A stretch of DNA of 33,745 nt from Kiritimatiellota bacterium. Lineage in GTDB: Bacteria; Verrucomicrobiota; Kiritimatiellia; Kiritimatiellales; Tichowtungiaceae. Below, piece by piece: positions 15,145-32,074 of the stretch. The notes under the pieces were generated by a model that ran no database searches, was not told where the DNA came from, and saw only the letters and a list, made by a program, of their open reading frames with translations. Numbering within the stretch: position 1 is the stretch's first letter; each line of letters starts with the position of its first letter. The stretch covers positions 1-33,745 of the forward strand of contig JACNKZ010000061.1 in assembly GCA_014381785.1 (NCBI GenBank). Reading direction: 5' to 3'. The translations under genes and the position numbers were made by a program.

Positions 15145-16248
15145 ATGAAAGCAATTGCTTATTACATTACCGCCCACGGATACGGCCACGGAACGCGCTC
15201 GTGCGATGTGCTTCGTGCGCTCGAGCGTCTCGCGCCGCAGCAGCCCGTCATCGTCACCACCGACCTGCCGCGCGACTTTCTCGACAGCCGGCTCAAGGGT
15301 TGCAAGAACATCACCTTCCGCACCGGCGCGTTTGATGTCGGCCTCGTCCAGAAAGATTCCATTCATGCCGACCTTTTCCAAACCTTGGAAAAACTGGAGG
15401 AACTCTACGCCCGTGAAGAACAGCTGATTGCCCAGGAACGGCTCTTCATTCAGCACGAAGACATCGGACTGGTTGTCGCCGACATTCCGGCCATCCCGCT
15501 CGCCGCCGCGCAGCGCAGCGGCATCCCCAACGTCGCCATCGGTAACTTTTCGTGGGACTGGATCTATGCCGCCTACGCCAAAACCGATCTGCACTGGGAA
15601 TACTTCGTCGAAAAATTCCGCGCGGTTTATGAACAGACCGACCTGCTGCTGCGCCTGCCCTTCGCCCCGCCGATGGAACAGTTCCCAAAACGAAAGGATG
15701 TTCCGCTTCTGGCAAGCCCCGGCACGCCGTGCCGGGAAAAGATTCGGGATTTGGGATTCGAGATTCGTGATTCAGCACCTGCCAGCAATAAACCGTGGGT
15801 CTTGTTGTCGTTCACCTCTCTCGGTCTAAATTACAAAGCATTGGAAAATATCCGCAAACTGAGTGATGACTATGAATTCTTCTGCGTCGATCCGTTGGAG
15901 TTTCCCATGTCATGCATCCATTCGATAAGTCGAGACAATGTCTCGTTTGCGGACGTCATCGCTTCGTGCGACATTGTCATCAGCAAACCGGGCTTTGGAC
16001 TGGTTTCGGAGTGCATTGTGAACAACAAGCCGCTGATTTACTCCGACCGCAGCGACTTCGCCGAATATCCCTTCCTCGTCGACGGCATCAAGAACTATCT
16101 CAAAAACGTCCACCTGCCTTCCGAACAGCTCTACGCCGGAGACTTGTCCCAGGCATTGGAAAAAATAAAAACCGCGCCGCAACCCGACGGCTTCATCAGG
16201 CGCAGCGGCGCGGAAATGATCGCCGAAGAACTGCTGGCTCTCAGATAA
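15145..16248 (+). CDS. GT-B-fold glycosyltransferase-like protein with an in-frame repeat
   Basis: A 367-residue cytoplasmic protein. The N-terminus AYYITAHGYGHGTRSCDVL is like the donor/acceptor loop of MurG-type GT-B enzymes, and the C-terminal domain has SKPGFGLVSECIVNNKPLIY and the RSDFAEYPFLVDG segment seen in GT28-like C-terminal domains. The substrate is unknown. Residues about 199-210 (KIRDLGFEIRDS) are encoded by five copies of a 7-bp repeat preceded by a CCCGGCAC/GTGCCGGG hairpin, placed between the two lobes, where homologs would have a variable linker. A perfect palindrome (15376-15390) is read as F-Q-T-L-E. The gene is isolated, with repeat elements on both sides. No clear ribosome site. 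Confidence 0.75.
   Translation: MKAIAYYITAHGYGHGTRSCDVLRALERLAPQQPVIVTTDLPRDFLDSRLKGCKNITFRTGAFDVGLVQKDSIHADLFQTLEKLEELYAREEQLIAQERLFIQHEDIGLVVADIPAIPLAAAQRSGIPNVAIGNFSWDWIYAAYAKTDLHWEYFVEKFRAVYEQTDLLLRLPFAPPMEQFPKRKDVPLLASPGTPCREKIRDLGFEIRDSAPASNKPWVLLSFTSLGLNYKALENIRKLSDDYEFFCVDPLEFPMSCIHSISRDNVSFADVIASCDIVISKPGFGLVSECIVNNKPLIYSDRSDFAEYPFLVDGIKNYLKNVHLPSEQLYAGDLSQALEKIKTAPQPDGFIRRSGAEMIAEELLALR
15376..15390. repeat. Iterated palindrome TTCCAA-ACC-TTGGAA (inside glycosyltransferase gene)
   Basis: Perfect copy in coding DNA, read as F-Q-T-L-E. Confidence 0.85.
15718..15774 (+). repeat. Hairpin plus 7-bp tandem repeat inside a reading frame
   Basis: CCCGGCAC-GCC-GTGCCGGG at 15718-15736 is followed by five 7-bp units at 15740-15774: AGATTCG, GGATTTG, GGATTCG, AGATTCG, TGATTCA. 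The same unit occurs at about 1688-1716 and 32148-32224. Confidence 0.8.
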
Positions 16249-16272: not shown

Positions 16273-16363
16273 GACAGGATAACAGGTCCGAAGTTTCGGA
16301 CTCCGAGCGTTCGGAGATGAACAGGATTCCATTCCCCCATCCAGTCGATCCTGTAATCCCGTC
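16273..16363. repeat. Inverted element bounded by GACAGGATAACAGG / CCTGTAATCCCGTC (copy 1)
   Basis: Left end GACAGGATAACAG, right end ATCCTGTAATCCCGTC in inverse orientation. Inside the left end, GTCCGAA-GT-TTCGGAC and TCCGA-GCGT-TCGGA (16286-16315) interrupt what would otherwise read AACAGGATGAACAGG. Two more elements with these ends lie at 30566-30749 and 31337-31512. No gene is present here. Confidence 0.7.
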
Positions 16364-16373
16364 CAAAACTCTT

Positions 16374-16388
16374 TTCCAATGCTTGGAA
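16374..16388. repeat. Iterated palindrome TTCCAA-TGC-TTGGAA
   Basis: Perfect copy between the inverted element and the htpG terminator. Confidence 0.85.
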
Positions 16389-16390
16389 AA

Positions 16391-16419
16391 GAAAAAGCCG
16401 CCCCGGACGGGACGGCTTT
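16391..16419 (-). terminator. Terminator of htpG
   Basis: On the minus strand AAAGCCG-TCCCG, GTCC-like loop and GGGG-CGGCTTT pair, followed by TTTCTTTTCC. It lies past the 56-bp inverted repeat that follows the htpG stop. Confidence 0.65.
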
Positions 16420-16422
16420 GAG

Positions 16423-16478
16423 AAAGTAGAGCAAGCGTCTCGCTTGCTCATAAACGAGCGGGACGCTCGTTCTACTTT
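16423..16478. repeat. Double-hairpin inverted repeat (AAAGTAGA...TCTACTTT)
   Basis: Outer arms AAAGTAGA and TCTACTTT enclose two perfect 7-3-7 hairpins: GCAAGCG-TCT-CGCTTGC (16431-16447) and ACGAGCG-GGA-CGCTCGT (16454-16470). It starts 3 bp after the htpG stop codon. Confidence 0.85.
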
Positions 16479-18676: not shown

Positions 18677-20869
18677 ATGAAGCATTTCCGAAACGTCAAA
18701 GAACCGCGAAATGAATCTGCTACATCACAACCCCGCCGCTCATTCCGCTGGTTAATCTTCGGATTGCTGGCCGCGATAGCGGCCCCCGCGATGTCCGCTG
18801 ATGTCGACTTCATCGCCGTGCTAAAAGGTCAGCGTTTTGAGCAAACAGGGCCGACTCTGGTCATACTGCGAGAAGAAGATGATTCGGATGATGACGAAGC
18901 TCTGGCACTCGAAGCGTTCGCCATCGGTGCGTCGTCGAATTCTCTGGTGTCCGGCACCTTGCAGATACCTGGCGGCACCACGGTGCCCTTAGAGCGCTGG
19001 GACACGGGAGACTCGGAGATTCTGCATGAGTATCAAACGGATACCTTACTGGATCTCAATACCACCCGGTCGAATGGGACGTACACGCTCGATCTCATTA
19101 CCCAAAATGACGGAACCCAACAGATCCCCCTCAACCTGCTGGGAGATGCCTATCCCAATGTACCGGTGGTTACGAACTTCAACGCCCTCCAGACAATCAC
19201 CCACACGAATGCCACGGTCGTTCACTGGGCCACCCTGACAGGCGGTACCACCAATGACTTCATCCAGTTTGTCGTGTATGACAATGAGACCGACCAGACC
19301 GTCTATGAAAGCGACGGCCCCGGCGCTCCCGGCTCGCTCAACGGCACTTCGGTACAAACCACGATTCCGGCAGATCTTCTGGATCCCGGACGGACCTACG
19401 AGGCGGAGGTGTTGTTTGTAAAAGTCGTCGACATCAACTTCACCTCCTATCCGGGTGTTTTGGCCATCGCCGGCTATTACAAACAGACGGGGTTACTGAT
19501 CCAAACCGTCGCCCTACCCGGGCAGGAGTTAGGGGCTCAGTTTGAGTACTCGATACCCCAATCCTGGGGTGGCGACGTGCCGAGAGATTCTGCAATTTCG
19601 TTCCGTTTTTCCCAGCCGATGACCACTAATTATACATTGGTGAGTTGGACAAACGTTAGCTCTGCCAACTTTACCTACGAATGGCTCGACGGGAATACCG
19701 TGCTACTGTGCCGCTATAACACAGCCCTGCCTGCCGATACCGAGGTTGGCTGGTCTCTGGATCTATCCGGCTTCCGCGATGCCGCCAACTTCCCGCTGAC
19801 AGGCTCAGTTGAGGGATCATTCCACACGTCTTCAGATGATCCCCAAAGCCCACCGGATGTGACCTGGTTTTCTGTGCTTAAAATGCGCGGCTACCAGCAA
19901 ACCGGAATAACCCCCGTAAGCTCGGGCATGTATGGCTGTGAGGCAGAGATTGAAATGGCGGCTTACAACCGGGTGAAACAAGGCACGCTGACCATCGATA
20001 CCAACGGGCGTAGCGGATTTCTGATGGCGGACGAGAACGATCCTGAGATGTGGATTGAGGCAACCTATGCGTCGGAGACCGACATCGAGCGGTTTTTTGC
20101 CAACGGCGATTTCACGTTCGATCTAACGACCTTGGCGGACGGTGCGAAAACCCTCACCCTGAGCCTGGGCGCGACGAATGACTACCCTGCCGCGCCGACG
20201 GCGACCAATCTGGAGGCGTTGCAGACCATTGATCCCGACACACCGGTGACTGTCCAGTGGACGGCACCGGCCAACTGGAGCGCTACCCCCGGCATTGGGA
20301 ACTGCGTGGTTGAATTGGAAATTGACAACTCACAGGGAGATGAAGTGTTGTGGGTCGACAACGAAGAGATCACCAGCGGTTCACAATATACCATTCCTGC
20401 GAACACGCTCTGGCCGGGTCGCACCTATGATGTGTCCATATACTTCATCAAAATAAAGGATGTGGATGACACCTCGTATTTGGATGCCATAGGCGTGGCC
20501 GGATTTTCATCCACCACCGAATTCACCCTCCAGACCACCGGGACCGTGATTATGCCCACCGCGGCCATTGAGCCAGACGAAAACGATAATATGAATCTAA
20601 GCATCACCGGGGGTGAGCCGCAACGAGGTTATGTTGGCGAAACCTCGCCGGACTTAACACGCTGGCGGCAACGCGGTCAAACGCCTTCTCGTCGTCGCTG
20701 TGGAGCATGGCGATTTTTTTTCCGGCCAGTTCAATCTCGCCGAAGCGCCCCAGAATTTTCACGCCGATATCTTCCGGATAGAAGTCCCAGTCCCAAGGGG
20801 CGTCGCAGTTGCCGAGCACCGCGTAGACCGGAATTTCCAATGTTTGGAAAATGGAGGCCATTTCGGTAA
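18677..20869 (+). pseudogene. Exported beta-domain surface protein, 3' end replaced (chimeric tail)
   Basis: The frame has 730 codons, but only about the first 663 look genuine. A signal peptide (RWLIFGLLAAIAAPAMSA) is followed by a module of about 230 residues (DVDFIAVLKGQRFEQTG to LIQTVALP), an Ig-like Big_5-type domain (RDSAISFRFSQPMTTNYT), a second copy of the first module (DVTWFSVLKMRGYQQTG to FTLQTTG) and the beginning of a third domain (RGYVGETSPDLTRW), a pattern common at C-termini of Verrucomicrobiota-type surface proteins. After W663 the frame turns into an arginine-rich tail that is simply the antisense of the opposing yfcE-like gene. No sorting signal remains. Function unknown, probably cell-surface or secreted binding. 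Confidence 0.7.
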
Positions 20870-20996
20870 GAACCATCTCGGAGCCGATATCACCGCAATG
20901 CAGAACGACATCAATGTCGCGAAAAATAAACTCGCGGGCCGCGCTGAGCGCCAGATCAACCTGCCCGTGTGTATCAGATAGAATACCGACTTTCAT
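20604..20996 (-). pseudogene. YfcE-type metallophosphoesterase, C-terminus lost
   Basis: From the ATG at 20996 the product starts MKVGILSDTHGQVDLALSAA with the DxH metal motif, then LHCGDIGSE and VYAVLGNCDAP, all standard for YfcE/MJ0936 phosphodiesterases. After residue about 112 (DRVAAS) the similarity stops and 18 unrelated residues, antisense to the surface-protein gene, lead to a stop at 20604. The family needs a further 40-60 residues including GHTH, which supplies metal ligands; it is absent, so the 130-residue product is probably inactive. A perfect palindrome (20835-20849) is read as F-Q-T-L-E. Divergent from argC. Confidence 0.8.
20835..20849. repeat. Iterated palindrome TTCCAA-TGT-TTGGAA (inside yfcE-like gene)
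   Basis: Perfect copy in coding DNA. Confidence 0.85.
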
Positions 20997-21007
20997 ATTG
21001 TCTCTTC

Positions 21008-21035
21008 TTGGAACCTTGCTTGAACCCGTTATAGT
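21008..21035 (+). promoter_or_regulatory. Candidate argC promoter
   Basis: TTGGAA, 16-bp spacer, TATAGT, ending 39 bp before the argC ATG. Good -10 and fair -35. Confidence 0.5.
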
Positions 21036-21074
21036 ACTCCGATTTAAATGCATTGCCAGTGGAGATTTATACGA

Positions 21075-31519: not shown

Positions 31520-32074
31520 TTATTTCTCACCGGTCATGACCAGCAACTGGGTTTTTAAAAAATCAACGGCCCGATCCAGATTCTCTTTTGCCTTTTCAGA
31601 GAGCATTTCACCAAACTCATTAAACTCGTACCCCCGAATGGCGAGCATATAAGCCTTCGGTTCGGCATGGAAGAGATCTCTCACCATTCCCATCAGCTGC
31701 GGAGCGCTGACGCTGTGCGAAGAAAACGACAGCCCGCCCTCCTCCGCAATCACGGGCGAAAACGTGAACGGCGGCTCCGCATCCGTCGACGCATCCGCAA
31801 AAATCACCACATCCACCTCCGCGATCTGCGCGGCATCCTCCACATTCAGCTGATAGTTCGTCTCAATCGTCAAGGCAGGCGGGACGCTCCGAAGTGTCGC
31901 GAGTTTCCGACCTGTGGTACGCCTGTCCGCCATAGCCTTGGCGACGGCGGAAGCTCCGGCGAAGGGGAACTTTTCGGGTGCGGGCTCAGCCTGCTGGAAA
32001 CGTTCGGCCAACGCGGGGCCGAGGCCGTCATCGAGCCGCCCGGGATTACCGTATCCAATCAGTAGAATTTTCAT
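31520..32074 (-). CDS. Hydrogenase maturation protease with a repeat-derived insertion
   Basis: A 184-residue protein of the HyaD/HycI endopeptidase family, which trims the C-terminus of a [NiFe]-hydrogenase large subunit. The N-terminus KILLIGYGNPGRLDDGLGP has the family's nickel-sensing Asp/Glu region; after it come ETNYQLNVEDAAQIAEVDVV and SHSVSAPQLMGM. Members are usually 150-160 residues. The excess is residues about 33-66 (from EKFPFAGASAVAKAM to RKLATLRSVPPA), encoded by 31872-31975, which contains the hairpin TCCGCC-N14-GGCGGA and looks like intergenic repeat DNA kept in frame. AAGGA precedes the ATG. No hydrogenase structural gene is in the window. Confidence 0.85.
   Translation of the reverse strand: MKILLIGYGNPGRLDDGLGPALAERFQQAEPAPEKFPFAGASAVAKAMADRRTTGRKLATLRSVPPALTIETNYQLNVEDAAQIAEVDVVIFADASTDAEPPFTFSPVIAEEGGLSFSSHSVSAPQLMGMVRDLFHAEPKAYMLAIRGYEFNEFGEMLSEKAKENLDRAVDFLKTQLLVMTGEK
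31872..31975. repeat. Palindromic repeat inside the hydrogenase protease gene
   Basis: About 104 bp that the protein family does not explain. It contains GCGGGACGCTCCGAAGTG and the inverted repeat TCCGCC (31926-31931) / GGCGGA (31946-31951) around GCC-TT-GGC. The word TCCGAAGT is shared with the hairpin element at 16287-16294. Confidence 0.6.

Follow-up and report, generated by a model that had tools for sequence, protein, structure and literature searches.

The window analyzed in this study is a stretch of 33,745 nucleotides from a Kiritimatiellota genome (contig JACNKZ010000061.1), near the end of which a gene for a 184-residue hydrogenase maturation protease of the HycI/HybD family, bearing an insert, occupies an open reading frame on the reverse strand (positions 31520–32074). 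The assignment is made by profile and by fold. In the NCBIfam profile search the protein scores 62.7 bits against TIGR00072, for which the cut-off is 47.45, and the top matches of its structural model in the PDB are HycI (5zby; E = 4e-9) and HybD (1cfz; TM 0.65/0.74). Pfam gave no match to the protein at E ≤ 1. By these measures the frame encodes a hydrogenase maturation protease, the cleavage activity of which is predicted from its sequence.

The host portion of the gene lies in two segments, both on the reverse strand. The N-terminal segment (31985–32074, residues 1–30) contains the GNPGRLDDG motif and the first acidic residue of the nickel site, Asp16, in invariant alignment columns, and the C-terminal segment (31523–31870) contains the family-invariant Asp94 and His120. 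These three residues, the acidic residue, Asp and His expected at the nickel site, are invariant in all 17 aligned sequences, and we take them to correspond to Glu16, Asp62 and His93 of HybD. The fold, the membership of TIGR00072 and the nickel-site residues are thus common to the HycI/HybD proteases and the window protein, whereas the window protein differs in having 34 additional residues after helix 1 and before strand 2.

Extent of the insert

The insert amounts to a net 102 bp (34 codons) at positions 31883–31984 on the reverse strand, corresponding to residues ∼31–64, with edges that are accurate to about ±5 codons. It was delimited with a MAFFT alignment of 17 sequences, consisting of the window protein and 16 homologs, of which two are congeneric orthologs (G009 and G011, obtained from a search of 14 genomes in its family) and 14 are more distant. 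A further 43 loci were available from named genomes, the nearest of which were labelled Verrucomicrobiota and Pontiellaceae, and part of these entered the alignment. Each of the 16 homologs has a gap of 34 residues, bounded by ALAER(xxxxx) on one side and by the LPGVTVESNYQLN linker on the other. The empty site is seen directly in the congeners G011 and G009, which align only to residues 2–26/27 and 66–181/182, with 12–15 bp between the two parts. The linker native to this position (LPGVTVESNYQLN in the relatives) is itself variable, so that the ends of the insert can be placed only to within a few codons. No target-site duplication was definable at the insert.

An earlier note on this DNA had described an otherwise ordinary HyaD/HycI-family protein interrupted at 31872–31975, which is near the measured span, and the gap in every homolog aligned bears this description out. 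Orthologs from elsewhere with a similar insert, which the note had named as evidence to the contrary, were sought, and none of the 16 homologs carries one.

Repeats within the insert

The middle of the insert is a dispersed palindrome of 34 nt, GCTTCCGCCGTCGCCAAGGCTATGGCGGACAGGC (31921–31954, reverse strand), which is read in the protease as ASAVAKAMADR. The hairpin TCCGCC-N14-GGCGGA reported in the earlier note is present within this core, as an inverted repeat at 31926–31951. With up to three mismatches allowed, the 26-mer has seven copies in the genome, including that in the window, compared with none for a reversed-pattern control. A search with the core gave 14 further matches in the genome (E = 2e-8 to 5e-4), and the unit of 30–34 nt recurs at several loci at up to 93–94% identity. 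Of 43 genomes of the order, 13 contain the repeat, while the control was matched in one; control matches numbered 0–1 per genome. The flanks of the copies are mutually unrelated, and the repeat unit is therefore the ∼34 nt itself; in the protease, ∼30 nt to either side of the core matched no repeat. Hairpin stability was considered as support and dropped, since the DNA fold is unexceptional for both the core (z = −1.3) and the whole insert (z = −0.85), and it is the copy number that provides the real evidence.

Copies of the core also lie within other genes, including those for glutamate-tRNA ligase (gltX; L007), PdxA (L008), an integron integrase (L010), a GT2 glycosyltransferase (L006), an RND-type transporter (L091) and a histidine kinase (L093). 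All six are in frame, in several reading frames and orientations, and the core is free of stop codons in five of its six frames. The resulting peptides vary, which argues against a common peptide function. Exact copies of the consensus core were also seen in only three contigs of a viral collection (L221:3982–4007, L222:6691–6716 and L223:3021–3046), which are apparently from unrelated organisms.

The second component is a 17-nt arm, GCGTCCCGCCTGCCTTG (31871–31887, reverse strand), of which 5 nt fall within the insert, at its 3′ edge, and the other 12 nt within aligned host sequence. This 17-mer has 13 further exact copies in the genome, mostly as inverted pairs, and belongs to a second palindrome, GGCAGGCGGGACGCCTGC ... 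GCAGGCGTCCCGCCTGCC, the DNA fold of which (z = −10.8) is far stronger than that of the core. The second palindrome is a REP that flanks a transposase. Y1/HUH transposases of the RAYT type occur in all 14 genomes searched, and in the genome under study one is located in hypF (G000:C74; L134:49–2973, forward strand), a frame of 974 residues in which Pfam places HypF domains on either side of Y1_Tnp. Three copies of the palindrome lie on each side of this RAYT, translated in frame as GRRDACDT...VPQASRLP, and the palindrome is also found near RAYTs in two other genomes (L176 and L178). The association of REP and RAYT is support, short of proof, for mobilization by a RAYT of the arm now seen in the protease. 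One copy of the core repeat was also observed near the N-terminus of hypF.

Judged from these matches, the insert is a worn composite of mobile-type repeats, namely the core palindrome and the arm of the second palindrome. The insert, the open frame and the repeat copies together support the proposal of the earlier note that a repeat-derived peptide is accepted in frame in the protease, and we regard the repeat-derived insert as real and confirmed.

Two further statements of that note fared less well. The short words that the insert was said to share with other intergenic repeats, TCCGAAGT and GGGACGCTC, have a single other occurrence apiece in the window (16287 and 16460), which is about the chance level for 8–9-mers; the pieces that it really shares with other repeats are the 34-nt core and the 17-nt arm. 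The claim that three genes here carry repeat-derived peptides holds loosely, but they do not involve one repeat family, as the glycosyltransferase and LptC-like genes carry a 7-bp ATTCGGG repeat. Units of this type were seen at 15742–15775 and ∼1685–1714, coding in the glycosyltransferase and in the LptC-like N-terminus. The glycosyltransferase exceeds those of two congeners in length by ∼6–8 residues, and a comparable stretch is present in G006. Elsewhere in the window, 16285–16475 is an intergenic run of different short palindromes (TCCGAAGTTTCGGA, CTCCGAGCGTTCGGAG, TTCCAATGCTTGGAA and ACGAGCGGGACGCTCGT), and the end of a long frame at 18677–20869 (forward strand) overlaps a phosphodiesterase-like frame at 20604–21053 (reverse strand); the C-terminus of the former is probably spurious or truncated.

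Origin of the insert and state of the protease

The structure was modelled with AlphaFold2, as the earlier note had suggested. Most residues outside the insert have pLDDT values of 86–98 and those of the insert (31–66) have values of ∼48–64, so that the insert appears as a low-confidence, probable surface loop on a confident fold, between the helix 18–29 and the strand 67–73. In comparison with the locus L028, dN is ∼0.21 and dS, which is near saturation, is ∼1.3; there are 14 lineage-specific changes here and nine in L028, an excess that is not significant. The insertion may also have happened so recently that decay would not yet appear in the substitution rates. The gene is the only TIGR00072 member found in a genome that is 98% complete. 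A hydrogenase large subunit with a C-terminal tail needs a maturation protease, and the sole NiFe large subunit found in this genome keeps a tail of 24 residues after DPCLSCATH. Because the nickel site is intact, the loop lies on a confident fold, the protease is the only one and the large subunit keeps its cleavable tail, the enzyme is judged from sequence and model to be probably still active.

The reading that we favor, and hold to be probable, is that two or more non-autonomous families resembling REPs or RPEs contributed to the insert, which is a degraded composite of them, was probably moved by a RAYT and now forms a neutral loop in a protease that is likely to be active. Palindromic repeats would have entered the protease in the loop that leads from helix 1 to strand 2. 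Their mobility is likely to have come from single-strand transposition of a REP, driven by a RAYT and followed by partial deletion, because part of the insert is the arm of a REP tied to a RAYT-type HUH transposase of the same genome; both the mobilization and the order of events are what we infer. The gene stayed open because the length of the insert is divisible by three and five of the six frames of the core have no stops. The outcome would be a probably flexible surface loop of 34 residues without a specific function.

A rival idea is that the insert inactivated the protease, the frame being open only by chance after a recent insertion into a gene that is being lost. The insert is confined to the window genome among those examined, and so may be recent, and the loop that received it follows the segment with the first nickel-site residue. 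Against this, the frame is open with its active-site residues retained, the rate of change shows no significant rise (14 versus 9), and the only protease found in a nearly complete genome faces an intact large subunit that still has its tail; we consider inactivation unlikely. That the insert instead gained a function, for example in regulating or retargeting the protease, might be read from the helix that the model places at residues 41–52, but the confidence of the model is low there, other proteins read this DNA in different frames, leaving no common peptide function, and no homolog aligned has the insert. Such a gain appears very improbable.

Two further explanations were weighed. Were the similarity to repeats due to chance, with the loop having grown by ordinary local duplication or slippage, the unremarkable folding energy would be accounted for, as would the parts of the insert that match nothing else; however, the exact identity over 17 nt to a repeat with 13 further copies, and the 93–94% identity over 30–34 nt at several loci, make this unlikely given the copy counts, to the point that we give it hardly any weight. 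An assembly artefact would be conceivable in a genome of 88 contigs, since repeats can create chimeras, but with so short a repeat, a gene that resumes correctly to either side and a frame that is preserved, this explanation is scarcely credible. A neutral loop derived from mobile repeats in a probably active protease is thus the reading that we retain. With the empty sites of the congeners for comparison, the insert provides a clear before-and-after case in which mobile repeat DNA has become protein sequence, and the enzyme concerned is single-copy, with an activity that can be assayed.

Transposases embedded in housekeeping genes

A more important and more surprising lead than the insert in the protease is the occurrence of in-frame transposase genes within conserved housekeeping proteins of the order. 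With the RAYT from priA of the window genome as the query, 43 genomes were searched, and many of the best matches were found to sit in open frames of 545–1198 residues. Pfam places host domains on both sides of Y1 in PriA, tRNA nucleotidyltransferase (L122, L143, L169, L170 and L174), the large subunit of exonuclease VII (XseA; L162, L166 and L171) and HypF, and on one side in diphosphomevalonate decarboxylase (L156), a B12-radical SAM protein (L173 and L176) and TatD (L180). In the XseA case L162 the RAYT was recognized by its motif, the Pfam model having given no match.

Judged from the priA loci of the order (L151–L168 and L181–L200), PriA is interrupted in seven genomes of the genus and ∼11 of the other family, and is uninterrupted in at least 11. 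The site is identical in the eight interrupted genomes that were aligned, namely the linker after QLTVSL or its equivalent. In G012 the RAYT is absent from priA and an apparent RAYT right end (EAAGMPLP) is left, which is likely to be an in-frame scar, and in G030 a REP alone occupies the RAYT site, in frame. In a tree the RAYTs group by host gene and not by genome: those of tRNA nucleotidyltransferase, XseA and the radical SAM protein each form one strongly supported clade, and those of PriA form two lineages, each of which extends across two families. This pattern may have arisen either by vertical inheritance followed by losses or by site-specific reinsertion.

Tentatively, and with more doubt than confidence, we suggest that this RAYT/REP system has become adapted to coding sequence. 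Its autonomous members, the RAYTs, would reside in frame and free of stop codons in the inter-domain linkers of PriA, tRNA nucleotidyltransferase, XseA and HypF, would come and go leaving in-frame scars, and would shed non-autonomous REPs such as that in the protease. Embedded RAYTs could make the gain of inserted protein segments directly testable.

Comparison with known systems

For the Kiritimatiellota lineage no earlier description of such a repeat was found; a search of the literature, with most subscription papers outside its scope, gave nothing relevant on Kiritimatiellota repeats or on transposases in frame in primosomal genes. In the scheme suggested above, the embedded RAYTs would resemble inteins in occupying fixed sites in proteins, and would differ from them in that splicing is not involved. 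Frame-keeping insertions of REPs inside RAYT genes are known in TnpA-REP subclass 2.4 (Quentin 2018, PMC6006769). The NH[IFV]H, WQ and YIxNNP-like motifs of this subclass (RAYT group 4) were seen by eye in the embedded RAYTs. Proteins of greater than expected length were put aside in the same study, being regarded as fusions or errors of annotation, and embedding in housekeeping genes was not found there.

For the insert itself, the closest parallels are repeats that lie within genes. In-frame GTAG/CGTC REPs inside open reading frames are known, notably in Opitutus terrae of the Verrucomicrobia (Di Nocera 2013, PMC3733652); like the repeats described here, they are dispersed palindromes of 20–40 bp within frames, often grouped, that contribute tens of residues in a genome with RAYTs. 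The core differs from them in having no terminal GTAG or CGTC: among the aligned copies, GTAG is internal in the consensus (on the reverse strand) and is ATAG in the window copy. That the core is a canonical GTAG REP with a RAYT of its own next to it is not supported, as it was not seen immediately beside a RAYT in any of the RAYT loci scanned; for the second palindrome an association with RAYTs is present (L134, L176 and L178). The host, a hydrogenase maturation protease, and the joining of two families are further differences.

The Rickettsia RPEs, as they are summarized in PMC3733652, are in-frame palindromic insertions in genes that are likely to encode functional proteins. The likeness is that a palindromic repeat adds a peptide in frame to a protein that is likely to function; it is a likeness of description, and the lineages are unrelated. 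The CGTC repeats, including RPE-4/6, apparently lack a dedicated transposase in that summary, whereas here one part of the insert matches a REP that flanks a RAYT. The insert in the protease, a short multicopy palindrome that is in frame within an open reading frame and absent from orthologs, belongs to this already described kind of intragenic REP or RPE.
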